64,000 nt of DNA from Owenweeksia sp. Its GTDB lineage: Bacteria > Bacteroidota > Bacteroidia > Flavobacteriales > Schleiferiaceae. The stretch is taken from the NCBI GenBank assembly GCA_028285465.1, contig JANQPD010000091.1:1-64000 (forward strand), in the 5' to 3' direction. Of this stretch, positions 1-10,886 are shown in pieces. Within the stretch, counting starts at the first letter, position 1; each line of letters opens with the position of its first letter. A model generated the notes under the pieces. The model was given only the letters and a program-made list of their open reading frames with translations. It searched no databases and was not told where the DNA came from. A program made the translations under genes and the position numbers.

Positions 1-1
1 G

Positions 2-370
2 AGTAATGGAGCCACTACTGCCAGCATTACAAACCTTACTGCCGGTACCTATTCCGTTACCATAACAGATGCCAACGGATGTACCGACTCCGCCAGCACT
101 ACCATCACTGAACCTACTCTGCTAAGTGCCTCTTCGGTTAAGACAGACGTAGTCTGCAATGGAGAAAGTGACGGATCAATTGATCTCACTTCATTTGGAG
201 GAACAGCCGGGTATACCTATAGCTGGAGCAATGGAGCCACTACAGAAGACCTAAATGGTATATCTATCGGTACGTATACGGTAACAGTAACCGATGCCAA
301 TGGATGTACGGCTACCAACAGCCAAACGATGAGTGAACCTTCTAAACTAATAGGAGGATCGGTGAATTAA
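2..370 (+). CDS. SprB-repeat adhesin, 3' end only (5' part outside window)
   Basis: An open frame runs in from the left edge and stops at TAA 368-370. It encodes about 122 residues made of the end of one SprB-type repeat, with [16 protein letters not shown], and one complete repeat, with [14 protein letters not shown] and [16 protein letters not shown]. These repeats are known from SprB-type surface adhesins and other large Bacteroidota surface proteins. The protein ends [11 protein letters not shown] with no T9SS sorting domain after the last repeat. The next gene ends the same way (GGSVGKK), so the two look like tandem paralogues. Its 5' end, signal peptide and total length cannot be seen. 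Confidence 0.85.
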
Positions 371-2907: not shown

Positions 2908-5900
2908 ATGAATAGACTAACTACATATCAAAAGCAGATGAAAAGTATTTCATTAAAGTGGATGGCTTTTTCCTTACTCTTTATGTACTCGACAGGCAGT
3001 ATTGGACAACAGAGTAAGTTGTTTTCTAAAAGCACTCCTAACGAAGTTAAGGATAAGCGAACACCTACTTCCAAGACATATGACCTTGGCGATGGTAAGC
3101 GAATGACTCGTGTGTACGATGGTCGGGTGCATTACCAAAGCGGACAAGACGGATGGCAAGACATCAACACAACGGTAGTTCCTTCTGCAAGTACTACCTA
3201 TGCTTTTGAAAATATTACCAATGGAGTTAAGAGCTACTTTCCAGCGATACTATCAGAAGAGGAAGGCGTGAAAGTAGTGAATGATGCAGGCCACTACGTT
3301 ATGGGAAGCGTATTTTCTTTTAGCCTTGAAGATGACGTAAATGCCACACAGGTACCCTACCGGGTAAATATTGACTTGCACGGTATAGCCGCATCCAAAA
3401 CAGCACCCAACAAAGTGATTTATAACGGGGGACACGAATTGGGTTATCTCGAATACGAAGTTGGCTATAACAGCTTGAAGCAGCAATTCATACTGGAAAA
3501 ATTACCCGAAAGCTTCAAAACGTCCGGTAAGAAATATTTATCGATGCACGAAACAGTAGAGCTACCGGAAGGCTGGATAATAGAAGCGAATGGTAAAGAG
3601 GTGATCGAAACTGCCGCCACGCGGGGCCAGTTGGTAGTGAAAAACAAAAAAAGAGAATTTGCCTTCAGTATTCCCTTACCGGAAGTATATGAACAAGCTG
3701 ACCGGGGTGAGATACTTTACCCGGACGGAAATATGGAACAGAGCTTTCTGGTACAGCGCTTAAAGGACAATCGCTATTCCCTGAAAATTTCCGTTCCGAT
3801 GAACTGGCTAATGGCACCCGGCCGTGTTTTTCCTATAGTGATCGACCCCAGTTCTAACCACGCCGGTAACTGGGGAGGATGGCTGGATGATGCAGTAGGC
3901 ATTGTAGAGGGCAATCCCACCACTTTTGTTTTTGCAGGAGCATTGAGTGGAACCGATCATATAGGCTGGACCAGGTTTGATGTTTCGTCAATCGATGACG
4001 GAGCTACAGTAGATTCGGTAATACTCGAATTAGCATGTAATAATACAGGAGCGAACACTCCTGTAAATATCAAAGTAAATGACGTAACCGGGACATACGG
4101 ACCCTACACCTCCCATAGCCCAACTGCTTTTTCCGATTTAAACGATGGTACGTATACCAGTGTTTCCATAACCGGAGCGGGCACTTATAGCAACATATAC
4201 CTGGGCGCACAGGCTTCCTCAGACCTGGAGAGCAGGCTTAGCAGTGATGAGTTCCAGGTTGCCCTTGATGCAGATAATGATCCTGCCTGGAAGCGCTTTA
4301 CCTCCAACCTCAACAACATCACAGTTGTGTATAATGTAGTTCCAACAGTAAATATCTGCTATGGAGACGTAGCCGGTACTTTCGACAATATCGACTCCAT
4401 TACCGGTGGGGTGGGCCCTTTCACCTACCAATGGCAGGTTTCCGCAGATATGGGTACCAGCTGGATGGCTGCCCCCGGGAACAATGACTCCATTGCGTAT
4501 GAAGCCCTTACCAACCTCTTTGATACTACTTTTTACCGGAGAAGGGTAATCGACCAATCCTGCGGGGATTCTGCCTTTAGTAATGTTATTGAAGTACATG
4601 TACCGGATTCCCTGCAATTGGATACAACGGTATCCAACATAAGCTGCAACGGCTTTGGCGATGGTAGTGTAGACCTCAGTGTGCTAGGCGGAGCTTCTCC
4701 CTTTACTTTCCTCTGGAGCAACGGGGCCACTACTGAGGACGTGAGCAACCTGTCTGCCGGTACCTATACGGTAACGGTAACCGATGACTTTAGTTGCACC
4801 GTGGTGAACAGTTATACGATCACCGAACCGGCCACTTTAGTAGCCGCTGCAGCGGCAGACAGCAATGTGAGTTGCAACAGCTTCTCTGACGGGGGCGCAA
4901 CCGCTTCTGCTACCGGCGGCACCATGCCTTTTAATTTCCTATGGAGCACCGGGGCTACCACAGCCAGTATTACGAATTTAGCAGCCGGTACGTATACCGT
5001 AACCATCACCGATGGAAATGGCTGTTCTGCTACAAACAGCACCACGATTACCGAACCCACTTTACTTAGCTCAACTGCCGTAGTAGACAGCAACGAAAGC
5101 TGTGCCGGGCAGGCCAATGGTGGCATTACGGCTTCGGCCACAGGAGGCACCCTCCCCTATGCTTTCAACTGGAGCACCGGGGCTACCACCGCTTCTATAA
5201 CCGGTTTGGCCGCAGGCACCTATACGGTAACGATCACCGATGGGAATAACTGTCAAGTCATCGATAGCGCCACGGTGATCCTGCAAGACATCATAGCGCC
5301 TACTATCGTATTGAAAAACATTACGGTGTACCTGGACGCTACCGGCAACGCCAGCATTGCAGCCGCCGATGTAGACAGCGCCAGCACCGATGCCTGTGGC
5401 ATTGCTTCGCGCAGCGTTACACCTAGCAACTTTAGCTGTGCTGATATTGGTGCCAATACGGTAACCTTTACCGCTATAGACATTAGCAGCAACAGCGACA
5501 GCGGTACCGCTACGGTAACCATTGTAGATACCGTTTCCCCTGCCGTAACTACACAAGATATAACGGTGTACCTCGATGCCAATGGGCAAGCCAGTATTAC
5601 CACCGGAGATATCGACAATGGAAGCAGCGATGCCTGTGGCATTCAAAGTATGTCCTTAGATACAACCTCTTTCGATTGCGATGACCTGGGAGCCAATACC
5701 GTTACCCTTACCGTTACCGATGTAAATAGCAACAGCAATTCAAACACTGCTACGGTAACGGTACGCGATACGATCACTCCGATGGCAGCGGCTCAGAACC
5801 TCACTGTATACCTGGATGCCAGCGGGCAGGCCAGTATTACCGGAGCTATGGCCAACAACGGCTCTTCCGACAACTGCCAAAGCAGCCTGGTGTATACTCT

Positions 5901-8900
5901 TTCGCAAAGTGTATTTGGCTGCGGGGACGAAGGTTTGAACATAGAAACTCTTACTGCCACAGATGCCGATGGCAACAGTTCTACTACCACCTTCCTGGTA
6001 GAAGTACAGGATACCATCAGTCCCACGCTCATCACCAAAACCATTACCATACAACTTGGAGCAACCGGTCTGGCCAGTATTTCTCCTTCACAGCTCGACA
6101 GTGCCAGCTTTGACAACTGTGCCAACCAACTGTTCTACAGCGCTACCAAAACCAGCTTCAACTGCAGCAACCTGGGGGCAAACCAGGTGGGCATTACCAT
6201 TACAGATGGCGAAGGCAACAGCACTAGTGGCTTTGCCACGGTGATCGTGGAAGACAACATAAACCCGGTAGCCCAAAGCCAGAATGTTACCGTACAACTT
6301 GACGCCAGCGGAAACGCCAGCATCACGGCCGCTATGGTAAACAACGGTTCTACCGACAACTGTGCTATTGACAGCATATGGGTAAGCCATACAAGCTTTG
6401 ACTGCAACAACCTGGGGCAAAACAGCGTGACGCTTAGTGTAATGGACCCCAGCGGGAACGTAAACAGCACCAATGCCATTGTAACGGTAGAAGACAACAT
6501 AAACCCGGTTGTGGTGACACAAAACATCACTGTGCAACTCGATGCCTCCGGGGCAGCGACCATCACTACTGCAGATATCGACAACGGAAGTGCGGACAAC
6601 TGCGCCATCAGCTCCCTGAGCCTGGATGTGAGCAGCTTTGGCTGTGCCGATGTAGGTGCCAATACCGTAACACTCACGGCAACAGATGCCGGTGGAAACA
6701 GCGCGTCCAACACCGCTACGGTGACCGTAGAAGACAATATCAACCCTACCGTTGCCACACAAAATATCACCGTGCAACTTGATGCCACCGGGGCAGCGAC
6801 CATTACTACTTCAGATATCGACAACGGAAGTACCGACAACTGCGCCATCAGTGCCCTGAGCCTGGATGTAACCAGCTTTAGTTGTACGGATATAGGCACC
6901 AATACCGTGACCCTAACGGCTACCGATGTAAACGGGAACAGCGCGTCCAACACCGCTACGGTTACTGTGGAAGACAATGTGAATCCTACTGTTGTTACAC
7001 AGAACATCACCCTACAGCTCGATGCCTCCGGGGCGGCGACCATCACTACCGCAGATATCGACAACGGAAGTACCGACAACTGCGCCATCAGCGCCCTGAG
7101 CCTGGATGCAAGCAGCTTTAGCTGTGCCGATGTAGGCACCAATACCGTGACCCTTACCGTTACTGATGTAAACGGCAACAGTGCTTCAGGCACCGCTACG
7201 GTGACTGTGGAAGACAATGTGAATCCTACTGTTGTTACACAGAACATCACCGTACAGCTCGATGCCAATGGAACAGCCAGTATTGTCGCTGCCGATATCG
7301 ACAACGGAAGTGCGGACAACTGCGCCATCAGCTCCTTAAGCCTGGATGTAAACAGCTTTAGCTGTGCCGATGTAGGCGCCAATACTGTAACCCTTACCGT
7401 GACCGATGTAAACGGAAACAGTGCCTCTAATACCGCTACGGTGACTGTGGAAGACAATGTCAACCCTACCGTTGCTACACAAAACATCACCGTACAACTT
7501 GATGCCACCGGGGCAGCGATCATTACTACTTCGGATATCGACAACGGAAGCGCGGACAACTGCGCCATCAGCTCCTTAAGCCTGGACGTAAGCAGCTTTA
7601 GTTGTGCCGATATAGGCGCCAATACCGTGACCCTAACGGCTACCGATGTAAACGGGAATAGCGCTTCAGGCACCGCCACGGTGACCGTTGCCGATGGACT
7701 GGCTCCCGTGGTGCAGGTGCAGAACATTACCGTTTACCTGGACGCAAACGGCACGCATACCGTATTGCCCGCAGATGTAGACAACGGCACGACCGACAAC
7801 TGTGGTACCATAAGTAACACTTCCCTGGACATCAGCAATTTTGATTGTGCCGATCTGGGGCAAAACCTGATAACCTTTACCGCTGTAGACGCCAATGGGA
7901 ACAGTGCTTCGGCAACCGCTTTTGTTACCGTGCTGGATACCATCTCGCCCAGCATAAACAACCTCCCAGCCACCATCACAGCCTATGCTACCCCTAACCA
8001 ATGTGCTACTACCGTACAGTGGCCTACCATTACAGCGGGAGACAACTGCAACAATGCCTTTATAAACACCAGCCAGGTTAACGGAGGGCTTTTCCCTAAA
8101 GGCACAACCACCGTGATCGTGAATGCCTTTGATGGCAGTGGCAATAGCGTAAGCGGTTCTTTTGACGTGGTGGTTCTTGATACTGTATCGCCTGTCATCA
8201 CCGGTTTGCCGGTAAACTTTACCATAGTACCCAACCCCAACGGTTGCGATGCTACGGTAAGCTGGGCAGCCCCCAGTGCTTTTGACAACTGTGGAGTAGC
8301 CAGCTTCACCAGCAACATTGCTTCGGGAAGTACCTTCCCCGTAGGTACCACTACCGTTACCTACACCGCTACCGATGCCGATGGAAACGCTTCCAGCGCC
8401 AGCTTCAACGTTACCGTTACCGATGTCATTGCTCCTACCATAACCGGGGTACCGGCAAACATTACGCAAGATGCTGATCCCGGAAGTTGTGCCGCCAACG
8501 TCACCTTTACTGCTCCGGTAGCGGGAGACAATTGTACGGGCGCTACCCTGGCAGCATCCCACATCAGTGGCAGCAGCTTCCCGGTAGGCACTACTACCGT
8601 TAGCTTTACCGCTACCGATGCCGCTGGAAATACAAGCAATGCAAGCTTTACCATTACCGTAACAGACGGCGAAAAACCGGTGGTTACCAGTGTGCCGCCA
8701 AGCGATACCGTTGGCATATGCGGGGCCACTTATGTATACCCCCTGCCTACCGCTACAGACAATTGCGGACCGGTTACCGTTACACAGCTTTCCGGCTTGC
8801 CCAGCGGAAACATCTTCCCCGCGGGTATTACCCAGAATGTGTTCAGGATCAGCGATGCGGCCGGAAACGACACCATTGTAGATTTTACCGTGGTGATCGT

Positions 8901-9621
8901 CCCCCAAGGGCAGCCTCAACTGCCTGCCGTGATCGAAATATGTGCCAACGCACCTGGCTTCGACATTACCCTGGGTCAGGACATCACCTGGACAGGAAAC
9001 GGGGTAACCAACAACGGTACTGCCTTTGAACCCGCACAAGCGGGTGTGGGTCGCCATATTTTAAGCTATACTTTTAATGATGATTACGGATGTACGGTAA
9101 CCGGCAGCATCAGCATTACCGTATTGCCGGTACCTTCTACACCGGTCATCATACAGCTTGCTTCCACTACCATCGGTACACAGGGCGCTTACGCTACCTA
9201 CCAGTGGTTCCGCAATGGGGTGGCCATAGCAGGTGCTACCGATCCTACCTACACCTATACCGAAGGAGGAAATTACCAGGTAACCGTGGGCAATACCAGC
9301 GGATGCCAGGTATACGGACCCGGGTACATTGTGGGTGAAGGCGGTACAGGAATAGGTATCGAGGAAAGGCCGCTGGCTGACCTTAAACTATACCCCAACC
9401 CTACCTCAGGCGCTATCACCATTGACCTGGGTATGGAGCAGGAACGCACTTTGGATATTGTATTGTTCAGCCTGGATGGAAGAAAAGTAATGGAAAAACA
9501 CGGCCGAAGTGACCTCAGCGGCAAAATGAGACTCGACCTGAACAAACTCCCTAAAGCCGCTTACTTCTTACAGGTAAAGGGTAGTGAAGCATCCGTGGTG
9601 CGCAAAATCATACTTTACTAA
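2908..9621 (+). CDS. Giant multidomain adhesin: DNRLRE-like, SprB, HYR-like repeats, T9SS sorting domain
   Basis: This is a 2237-residue secreted protein. A signal peptide ends near residue 34 (SIGQQ); the Met at residue 11 (nt 2938) is an alternative start. Residues 35-310 resemble the N-terminal part of RHS/YD-type wall proteins (VFPIVIDPS). Residues 315-475 look like a DNRLRE domain (WTRFDVSSIDDGATVDS). A PKD-like module shared with the previous gene and three SprB repeats follow. Eleven 80-residue HYR-like repeats occupy about 791-1671, each with DNC or DAC and F.C cysteines that may form a disulfide. Four classical HYR domains (PATITAYATPNQC-type) and an Ig-like region come next. The T9SS type A sorting domain starts near 2155 (LKLYPNPTSG) and ends VVRKIILY. 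A role in surface adhesion or gliding is likely but not shown. Large antisense frames over the repeats are composition artefacts. Confidence 0.9.
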   Translation: MNRLTTYQKQMKSISLKWMAFSLLFMYSTGSIGQQSKLFSKSTPNEVKDKRTPTSKTYDLGDGKRMTRVYDGRVHYQSGQDGWQDINTTVVPSASTTYAFENITNGVKSYFPAILSEEEGVKVVNDAGHYVMGSVFSFSLEDDVNATQVPYRVNIDLHGIAASKTAPNKVIYNGGHELGYLEYEVGYNSLKQQFILEKLPESFKTSGKKYLSMHETVELPEGWIIEANGKEVIETAATRGQLVVKNKKREFAFSIPLPEVYEQADRGEILYPDGNMEQSFLVQRLKDNRYSLKISVPMNWLMAPGRVFPIVIDPSSNHAGNWGGWLDDAVGIVEGNPTTFVFAGALSGTDHIGWTRFDVSSIDDGATVDSVILELACNNTGANTPVNIKVNDVTGTYGPYTSHSPTAFSDLNDGTYTSVSITGAGTYSNIYLGAQASSDLESRLSSDEFQVALDADNDPAWKRFTSNLNNITVVYNVVPTVNICYGDVAGTFDNIDSITGGVGPFTYQWQVSADMGTSWMAAPGNNDSIAYEALTNLFDTTFYRRRVIDQSCGDSAFSNVIEVHVPDSLQLDTTVSNISCNGFGDGSVDLSVLGGASPFTFLWSNGATTEDVSNLSAGTYTVTVTDDFSCTVVNSYTITEPATLVAAAAADSNVSCNSFSDGGATASATGGTMPFNFLWSTGATTASITNLAAGTYTVTITDGNGCSATNSTTITEPTLLSSTAVVDSNESCAGQANGGITASATGGTLPYAFNWSTGATTASITGLAAGTYTVTITDGNNCQVIDSATVILQDIIAPTIVLKNITVYLDATGNASIAAADVDSASTDACGIASRSVTPSNFSCADIGANTVTFTAIDISSNSDSGTATVTIVDTVSPAVTTQDITVYLDANGQASITTGDIDNGSSDACGIQSMSLDTTSFDCDDLGANTVTLTVTDVNSNSNSNTATVTVRDTITPMAAAQNLTVYLDASGQASITGAMANNGSSDNCQSSLVYTLSQSVFGCGDEGLNIETLTATDADGNSSTTTFLVEVQDTISPTLITKTITIQLGATGLASISPSQLDSASFDNCANQLFYSATKTSFNCSNLGANQVGITITDGEGNSTSGFATVIVEDNINPVAQSQNVTVQLDASGNASITAAMVNNGSTDNCAIDSIWVSHTSFDCNNLGQNSVTLSVMDPSGNVNSTNAIVTVEDNINPVVVTQNITVQLDASGAATITTADIDNGSADNCAISSLSLDVSSFGCADVGANTVTLTATDAGGNSASNTATVTVEDNINPTVATQNITVQLDATGAATITTSDIDNGSTDNCAISALSLDVTSFSCTDIGTNTVTLTATDVNGNSASNTATVTVEDNVNPTVVTQNITLQLDASGAATITTADIDNGSTDNCAISALSLDASSFSCADVGTNTVTLTVTDVNGNSASGTATVTVEDNVNPTVVTQNITVQLDANGTASIVAADIDNGSADNCAISSLSLDVNSFSCADVGANTVTLTVTDVNGNSASNTATVTVEDNVNPTVATQNITVQLDATGAAIITTSDIDNGSADNCAISSLSLDVSSFSCADIGANTVTLTATDVNGNSASGTATVTVADGLAPVVQVQNITVYLDANGTHTVLPADVDNGTTDNCGTISNTSLDISNFDCADLGQNLITFTAVDANGNSASATAFVTVLDTISPSINNLPATITAYATPNQCATTVQWPTITAGDNCNNAFINTSQVNGGLFPKGTTTVIVNAFDGSGNSVSGSFDVVVLDTVSPVITGLPVNFTIVPNPNGCDATVSWAAPSAFDNCGVASFTSNIASGSTFPVGTTTVTYTATDADGNASSASFNVTVTDVIAPTITGVPANITQDADPGSCAANVTFTAPVAGDNCTGATLAASHISGSSFPVGTTTVSFTATDAAGNTSNASFTITVTDGEKPVVTSVPPSDTVGICGATYVYPLPTATDNCGPVTVTQLSGLPSGNIFPAGITQNVFRISDAAGNDTIVDFTVVIVPQGQPQLPAVIEICANAPGFDITLGQDITWTGNGVTNNGTAFEPAQAGVGRHILSYTFNDDYGCTVTGSISITVLPVPSTPVIIQLASTTIGTQGAYATYQWFRNGVAIAGATDPTYTYTEGGNYQVTVGNTSGCQVYGPGYIVGEGGTGIGIEERPLADLKLYPNPTSGAITIDLGMEQERTLDIVLFSLDGRKVMEKHGRSDLSGKMRLDLNKLPKAAYFLQVKGSEASVVRKIILY
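5281..7920 (+). repeat. Eleven tandem 240-bp repeats in perfect register
   Basis: Equivalent positions (the segment encoding (Q/K)NITV(Q/Y)LDA.G) fall at 5311, 5551, 5791, 6031, 6271, 6511, 6751, 6991, 7231, 7471 and 7711, exactly 240 bp apart with no insertion or deletion. Units from about 6511 to 7700 are nearly identical in long stretches, while the first five and the last are diverged. Conserved residues include D(N/T)xxP at the start, DNC(A) in the middle and FxCxDxGxN later in the unit. Confidence 0.9.
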
Positions 9622-9644: not shown

Positions 9645-10886
9645 ATGAAAAAAACCATCCATACATTTATTGCGGCAGCCCTCTTTTCGGTAGTGGCACA
9701 AGCGCAAGACGGAAGAGATACCACATTAAAAACGTTTAGCATAGGCCTTAGGGCCGTACACCTGTACGACCTGCCCGCCTATCGTTTTGACGATGCTATG
9801 AGCCGGGACATGCGTGGGCTTAACGGGGATAAAACTTCTTTTGACCTGGGGGTTGATCTTTATCTCGAAAAACAATTTACGCCACTGTTTGGTGCCCAGC
9901 TCGGCTTTCGGTACGCTACACTCACCGGGGCCAATGAAACGGAGTATTACACCAATACGTTCTACCAAGGGCAACTTGACCTTTTATTCATTCTCAGTAA
10001 CCTCGATGCTTTCCATACCAACAGCCGCTGGAATTTTTATACCAAGGCAGGGATAGGCAACGGAAGTTTTACCTCCGAGCAATTTTTGATCGAGGACGAT
10101 GCACAGGATGACCGGGTGGAAGACAACTTCTGGGAAACACATGCAGGAGCGGGCATACAGTACGAATTAAACAACAGCCTGCGCCTGGAACTGGAAATGC
10201 TGTATAATGTAGCGCTTACCGATGGCTTTGATGGTTTTGACAACGCCACGGGCAGCGACAATTATTTAACCACTGCGCTGGGTATTGCCTATACATTCGG
10301 CAAAAAAGAGAAAAAACCCATGTATGCCGTAAATTACTTTGGAGGAGAATACCTGGACATGGGCAGCGATGCCTCAACCCCTGACGCTCCTTCAACACCT
10401 GTAACCGAAGAGGCCGCCGCAGAACAGCCCGATGAGTTAGGCGAAATGCGCACGGAAATAGCCAGTATGGAAAACCAGCTGGAAGAGCAGAAGCGCATGT
10501 TGTCTGCCGTAAACCGCAAACTCGAAAAGCAGGAAGAGGAAATTAACCAGATCAAAAACAGCCGAAACGCTGCAATGGGTACTGGGGTGTACTTTGCTTT
10601 TGATTCCAGTTACCTGAGTAATACAGCCAAAAAACAACTGGCAGATGCATTGGGTGGTATGGAAAACAAATCAGACGTTAAACTGGAGCTGACCGCTTAT
10701 GCCGATAAGGTGGGAAGCGATGCTTATAACAAAGATCTGAAACAGCGCAGGGCAGAAAGTGTACAAGCTTTCCTGACCAAGCTTGGCTACAATGCCGCAA
10801 ATATATCTGTGCAAATGGGAGAGCGCTCAGACTTTGGTTCGGAAGACCAGTTCCTGAACCGTAAAGTAGTAGTAACCCCCTTGTAA
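9645..10886 (+). CDS. OmpA-family outer membrane protein
   Basis: The protein has 413 residues. A signal peptide ends near residue 21 (VVAQAQ). Residues 22-230 look like an outer-membrane beta-barrel, with alternating hydrophobic strands ending in aromatic residues. Residues 245-305 form a charged coiled coil (ELGEMRTEIASMENQLEEQ). Residues 310-413 are an OmpA C-terminal domain that binds peptidoglycan: YFAFDSSYLSNTAKKQL, then a degenerate LELTAYADKVGSDAYNKDLKQRR. It starts 23 bp after the giant adhesin and ends at a clear terminator, so it is probably the last gene of the adhesin operon. In Flavobacterium, OmpA-like genes often lie near sprB, which suggests a role in adhesin display or anchoring. 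That role is inferred. Confidence 0.88.
   Translation: MKKTIHTFIAAALFSVVAQAQDGRDTTLKTFSIGLRAVHLYDLPAYRFDDAMSRDMRGLNGDKTSFDLGVDLYLEKQFTPLFGAQLGFRYATLTGANETEYYTNTFYQGQLDLLFILSNLDAFHTNSRWNFYTKAGIGNGSFTSEQFLIEDDAQDDRVEDNFWETHAGAGIQYELNNSLRLELEMLYNVALTDGFDGFDNATGSDNYLTTALGIAYTFGKKEKKPMYAVNYFGGEYLDMGSDASTPDAPSTPVTEEAAAEQPDELGEMRTEIASMENQLEEQKRMLSAVNRKLEKQEEEINQIKNSRNAAMGTGVYFAFDSSYLSNTAKKQLADALGGMENKSDVKLELTAYADKVGSDAYNKDLKQRRAESVQAFLTKLGYNAANISVQMGERSDFGSEDQFLNRKVVVTPL

Follow-up and report, generated by a model that had tools for sequence, protein, structure and literature searches.

Periscope proteins such as Rib, SasG and Sgo_0707 carry tandem folded domains at the cell surface, with an N-terminal part beyond them and a C-terminal anchor; Rib domains are periscope stalk domains, and periscope repeats have been sought as tandem units of more than 50 amino acids (aa) with at least 80% identity (PMC8201768, in part). 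Adhesins of the type IX secretion system (T9SS) that bear type B sorting domains are in many cases encoded just ahead of a partner gene, and Fjoh_3952 also appears to be anchored by a PorE homologue (PMC12618676, in part). Here we describe a gene pair from Owenweeksia sp. that has features of both. It lies in a stretch of 64,000 nucleotides (nt) of contig JANQPD010000091.1 (forward strand, positions 1–64,000), hereafter the window. An open frame on the forward strand at 2908..9621 encodes a stalked surface protein of 2237 aa, with Pfam HYR, SprB and Por_Secre_tail matches above the cut-offs. A gene on the same strand (9645..10886), starting 23 nt after its stop, encodes a 413-aa outer-membrane protein (OMP) with barrel and OmpA domains (OMP_b-brl, 38.5 bits against a cut-off of 28.7; OmpA, 46.4 against 27.2). 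We consider it probable that the first product is a periscope-like stalked adhesin exported by the T9SS and that the second is its dedicated outer-membrane partner; we infer adhesion, export, anchoring, rod shape and the partner role from the features given below. The repeats are of an ordinary kind, a periscope-like stalk, and the conserved OMP pairing is the part worth following.

The stalk protein ends in a conserved C-terminal module of 561 aa (7936..9618, forward strand), in which four HYR stretches recognized by Pfam are accompanied by an Ig-like stretch and a T9SS type A sorting domain (aa 2161–2235, 9388..9612, forward strand; TIGR04183, 39.0 against 23 bits; Por_Secre_tail, 48 against 27). 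This module recurs in 19 loci, including the window, and all 19 have a same-strand homologue of the OMP downstream, full length at 18 of them and barrel only at one. Two separate scans of 88 genomes of the family, with the module and the OMP as respective queries and a limited number of candidates scored per genome, rank the same 15 loci at the top: the module scores at least 234 bits there (next 96.3) and the OMP at least 64 (next 53.4). At each of these 15 loci the OMP gene comes next on the strand of the module, and the gap between the two is projected at −25 to +55 nt. A scan of the order (296 genomes) yields 16 module loci (E value 1e-40 or lower) and 18 OMP loci (1e-15 or lower). It adds four module loci (one in G059, two in G048 and one in G098), each with an adjacent OMP homologue. 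Fifteen of the 18 OMP loci adjoin a module, and the OMP of G524 adjoins a 315-aa protein that has only the module end. The 19 module loci come from at least two families of the order, and two paralogous pairs occur in each of G028, G125 and G048; in G028 and G125 each pair keeps its own partner type, as linkage by itself would also produce. Module and OMP distances are correlated (r 0.96 over 105 pairs, 0 of 5000 permutations).

The stalk protein begins with a hydrophobic, signal-peptide-like stretch ending before GQ, as judged by eye without a predictor. Its N-terminal region (aa 1–491, 2908..4380, forward strand), the putative distal tip, has no match above cut-off in library or relative searches. 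Pfam gives none at E values up to 5, NCBIfam DNRLRE stays below its cut-off over aa 342–468 (22.3 against 34 bits), and a search for orthologues by the N-terminus among 59 relatives has no match at an E value of 0.001. Among the homologues, the N-terminal parts do not resemble each other overall and sort into several groups. SprB repeats follow (4624..5286, forward strand; 63.1 against 28 bits, best at aa 573–608) as three Pfam stretches with approximate borders, and the same region also appears as repeat families D2, D3, D5 and D7. The stalk array then occupies 5287..7935 on the forward strand (2649 bp) with 11 HYR-like units, as defined by repeat analysis and a two-unit AlphaFold2 model, and leads into the C-terminal module. 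Of the parts expected of a fibrillar adhesin (adhesive domain, stalk and anchor), the stalk and the sorting domain were seen. By architecture only, the succession of SprB, HYR-like, HYR and type A sorting domains supports the adhesin stalk proposed in the original prediction, made from the letters alone; no binding domain was recognized. Upstream of the gene, the contig starts within an SprB-repeat frame (window 1–370), and the next open reading frame (ORF), of 808 aa, lies at 472–2898. Both terminate just past SprB repeats (GGSVN and GGSVGKK, respectively), and no separate sorting-domain stretch passes in the 808-aa ORF with Pfam or NCBIfam.

The eleven tandem units do stand in a single open frame, as originally predicted. 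Anchored on their first cysteines, they measure 80, 80, 81, 81, 80, 80, 80, 80, 80, 80 and 81 aa. An exact 240-bp register without any indel had been claimed; this applies to eight of the eleven units, which have 80 codons, while units 3, 4 and 11 have 81, the added residue falling between both cysteines, which thus have a spacing of 15 rather than 14. The span first given for the array, 5281–7920, presumes 11 × 240 bp and thus runs out of phase after unit 3; the corrected span is 5287–7935. The tandem arrangement is far above chance (Tandem Repeats Finder score 1561 over 6517–7685), and an 11-row alignment of the units has 15 invariant columns, including D1, P5, D35, C37, F49, C51, D65 and N69. 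The description of the central units as nearly identical was overstated. Units 6–10 (6493..7692, forward strand) share 78–87% DNA identity, 81–88% protein identity and 47–76% of fourfold sites, and their ten pairs have NG86 synonymous divergence (dS) of 0.40–1.14 and nonsynonymous divergence (dN) of 0.06–0.10. Given this difference, the likeness among them owes much to purifying selection. Units 1–5 and 11 have at most 71% identity to another unit.

Family models recognize the units weakly. Pfam HYR matches eight of the eleven at E values up to 1 (best 9.9e-05), and unit 7 reaches 17.6 bits against a gathering score of 21.7. NCBIfam LapB_rpt_80 (NF033932) matches four (best E value 0.062), and no stretch passes singly, so that the units are not assigned to that family, although they resemble LapB repeats as surface repeats of about 80 residues and the whole protein scores 57.6 against a cut-off of 45. 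Because both models match them so weakly, such arrays are probably under-annotated. With HYR (PF02494) the units share the general fold class and motifs. Structure prediction for two adjacent units, suggested originally as a check, gave a confident model: AlphaFold2 folds units 8–9 into an HYR-like, Ig-like beta-sandwich (predicted local distance difference test (pLDDT) 97.3, predicted template modelling score (pTM) 0.79). The alignment behind it consisted of 10 rows, the protein's own unit pairs, and since these are paralogues of one array, the value of 97.3 expresses confidence in the fold and is not an independent test. The same two units without an alignment gave a poor model (pLDDT 56.0, pTM 0.34). 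The closest solved fold to the two-unit model is that of tandem Rib domains (6s5y; Z 9.7, root-mean-square deviation 4.0, 145 aligned residues), followed by Rib and PKD domains at Z 8.0–8.8. A sequence search of solved structures gave at best a PKD-like match (E value 0.036), a viral fold library returned Ig-like matches of many kinds, and a PHROGs search gave nothing informative. Scanning viral contigs with the unit alignment produced seven pattern matches and no relatives, and 18 loci from one genome-contig scan were dropped, as none had a stalk unit at a domain E value below 1e-4. In sum of likenesses to periscope proteins, the closest solved fold is Rib and units 6–10, at 81–88% identity, exceed the 80% used in the periscope search. 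Unlike those proteins, this one is T9SS cargo of a Gram-negative bacterium, units 1–5 and 11 fall well under 80%, and the unit number is compared here between species only.

In the AlphaFold2 model, C37 and C51 flank a hairpin of strands 39–44 and 48–50, across which the two cysteines of each unit would form a disulfide. A rod of disulfide-linked domains had been suggested at the outset; both cysteines are indeed invariant in the 11 units, but among relatives a Cys37–Cys51 pair is backed only indirectly. We counted cysteines in 289 distinct full units from relatives in 44 genomes (a tally in which two unmapped loci stand as a single one), leaving out the window's own loci, repeated units, fragments with more than six gaps and the G049 loci L034, L057, L066 and L100–L104; the units are not independent of each other. 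No covariation of Cys37 and Cys51 was found (235 units with both, 37 with only Cys37, 15 with only Cys51, 2 with neither; p 1.0). Cys9 and Cys73 co-occur (69 units with both, none with only Cys9, 9 with only Cys73, 6 of which have Cys7). Cys51 is absent from all 23 units that have Cys21 or Cys22, and all 23 have Cys37. This mutual exclusion suggests that Cys37 may be one cysteine with alternative partners, position 51 in units of the stalk type and 21 or 22 in those of the classic HYR type. Both types would be present in the window protein: its 11 stalk units would pair 37 with 51, whereas the four true HYR units that follow use a 22–37 spacing, with the cysteine pair 15 apart. The 15 units with Cys51 but not Cys37, the 14 in which Cys37 has neither partner, and the lack of 37/51 covariation count against alternative partners.

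Unit numbers were compared between species, with one genome per species; the copy-number variation first suggested for strains is seen here at that level. In the 15 C-terminal module loci of the taxonomic family, 3–21 stalk units precede the module: 3 in G009, 7 in G028a and G024, 8 in G471, 10 in G125b, 11 in the window, G017 and G007, 14 in G003, 16 in G439, 18 in G028b, and 21 in G125a, G097, G440 and G441. In G017 and G471 the frame is cut by a contig end, but the G017 array looks whole because its first unit lies 112 aa inside the frame. These natural length variants on one conserved base could be useful for questions of adhesin length. G028b differs from G439, whose module is 97% alike, by a three-unit tandem duplication (G028b units 11–13 against 14–16, 89–99% alike), and G125b has three units more than G028a. 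The four 21-unit loci share one set of pitches, and by our own count the best match is positional for 19 of 21 units from G125a to G097 and for 20 of 21 from G097 to G441, but for only 10 of 21 from G440 to G125a. The nearest relative found, G017, has 11 units like the window, and units 1–5 match by position in both directions. Window unit 11 selects G017 unit 11, while in reverse G017 unit 11 selects window unit 8. Window units 6–10 are closer to each other (best identity 85–89% within the protein) than to any G017 unit (68–74%), which supports homogenization or re-amplification of the central block after the split from G017, though not recently. Tests for a mosaic structure in units 6–10 give weak positive signals (PHI-like p 0.001, longest-run global p 0.026). 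Of the homogenization first proposed, past concerted evolution of these units is thus supported, whereas ongoing homogenization is not, given the dS of 0.40–1.14.

In the mechanism that we favor, the protein would leave the cell via the SprA translocon and be sorted by its type A domain, and its base would be kept at the outer membrane with the OMP, which would serve the adhesin as its own anchor or partner and hold on to peptidoglycan through its OmpA domain. The units would form a rod that carries a variable, distal N-terminal binding tip outward and sets its reach. Recombination inside the gene would add or remove whole units and sometimes homogenize the central ones, in episodes separated by long divergence under purifying selection. 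Machinery for export is present in the genome, as PorU and SprA both exceed their cut-offs, each in two pieces on two contigs. The protein architecture, the differences in whole-unit number and a dN far below dS speak for this mechanism, as do the confident Ig-like prediction and the closest solved fold, a periscope stalk domain; the agreement of the two scans on 15 loci, the adjacent same-strand OMP, the neighbors of the four added loci and the correlated distances of module and OMP favor a partner role. The arrangement resembles the SprB/SprF pair, a secreted adhesin gene followed by an outer-membrane partner gene (PMC12618676, in part), but the sorting domain here is of type A and not B, which places the locus outside that group, and the partner is an OmpA-tailed barrel for which Pfam and NCBIfam give no PorP/SprF match at an E value of 0.01. 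Several observations weigh against this mechanism. All type A domains of Flavobacterium johnsoniae use the PorV shuttle (PMC12618676, in part), so no dedicated partner would be needed for export, and parallel divergence of module and OMP would also be expected of any two linked genes. The partner at G098:C41 (L143; adhesin ORF from 2646 and ORF from 5716) is a 219-aa barrel without the OmpA tail, and no module was detected within the stretch fetched around the OMP homologues of G049 and G060. Only 10 of 20 array loci fetched have an OMP homologue, so the units are used without the partner elsewhere. Neither Pfam nor NCBIfam recognizes an adhesive domain in aa 1–491, and the missing covariation of Cys37 and Cys51 belongs here as well. 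Some of these points would suit an ordinary type A stalk protein that takes the general T9SS route through PorV, PorU and A-LPS (anionic lipopolysaccharide), next to an OMP that is co-inherited and co-transcribed but independent. The type A domain is above cut-off, type A cargo is described as linked to A-LPS (PMC9950754, in part, which treats another gene pair), and linkage alone could account for the parallel divergence. However, adjacency in 19 of 19 loci, in more than one family and with paralogous pairs in three genomes, is more than would be expected of unrelated neighbors, and we regard the general route with an independent OMP as a serious alternative that is nevertheless rather doubtful.

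Two further explanations concern the array itself. It could be a recombination substrate kept in rapid turnover for the sake of variation, through antigenic or length switching, as the three-unit duplication between sister loci, the near-identical arrays in G122 and G049 and the mosaic signal in units 6–10 might suggest. We consider this very unlikely: in the window the central units have a dS of 0.40–1.14 and the longest exact repeat within the array is 48 bp, the count of 11 is shared with G017, and a count of 21 is common to four related loci. An assembly artefact, in the array as such or in its unit number, is a further possibility, and the contig start within an SprB-repeat frame does indicate that the assembly broke at a nearby repeat. 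Yet no 51-mer recurs in the array, its longest exact repeat is as short as just stated, and the number of 11 recurs in G017, a separate genome, where units 1–5 have positional matches in both directions; collapse thus appears unlikely, and we hold an artefact to be highly improbable. Returning to the adhesin and its partner, we propose tentatively that these loci may form a two-gene Bacteroidota system, in which a type A stalked adhesin is co-inherited with its own peptidoglycan-linked OmpA-barrel anchor, acting beside or instead of PorV and A-LPS, with a changing tip, a conserved base and a stalk resized in domain blocks of about 80 aa. If the partner role is true, some adhesins among the type A cargo, which is described as using one general shuttle (PMC12618676, in part), would be held by an outer-membrane anchor of their own. 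For this variant, an OmpA barrel encoded next to a type A adhesin, we found no description in the open-licence PubMed Central (PMC) literature; such an HYR stalk likewise has no recognized description there, and 'HYR' does not occur in the main text, as partly available, of PMC8286594 and PMC9210967.

The repeat family extends beyond these loci. The unit profile matches 25 of the 148 genomes sampled from the order and 32 of 296 genomes of the phylum (the window's genome is counted in both, and some genomes are shared between the sets). Of 241 adjacent pitches no longer than 96 aa in the 20 loci fetched, 173 measure exactly 80 aa and 228 fall within 79–82 aa; without the broken-frame G049 array, a hand count gives 123 and 177 of 190. 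Internal indels relative to the model occur in 113 of the 289 units from relatives. The pitch of about 80 aa is a loose property of the repeat family. The strong length constraint read into the array at first has weak support, 80 aa being prevalent but these indels frequent, and relatives with variable unit length, named then as a refutation, exist in part, 79–82 aa being common and lengths reaching 96. Confinement of length changes to the Cys37–Cys51 loop was rejected, as it holds for three of three in the window, but among relatives the loop accounts for no more than 44 of 130 insertions and 27 of 87 deletions.

Three loci in other genomes are of separate interest, the first two for homogenization stronger than that in the window. 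The single-contig relative G049 (G049:C1:2405604-2429578; L066, L103 and L104) carries a four-cysteine version of the unit, repeated in tandem about 100 times at 240 bp; 101 anchors spread over 24 kb, and once homopolymers are compressed 95 of 100 units are identical. Differences of one base in length break the frame and resemble long-read error. In G122 (G122:C1:3135500-3147500; L065), five adjacent unit pairs have 94–97% DNA identity, making this array a better candidate for recent homogenization than that of the window. Finally, G064 (G064:C1:5500-19500; L067) carries a pair of array genes, separated by 4.8 kb, whose unit scores and neighbor identities are equal, apparently the result of a recent gene duplication.

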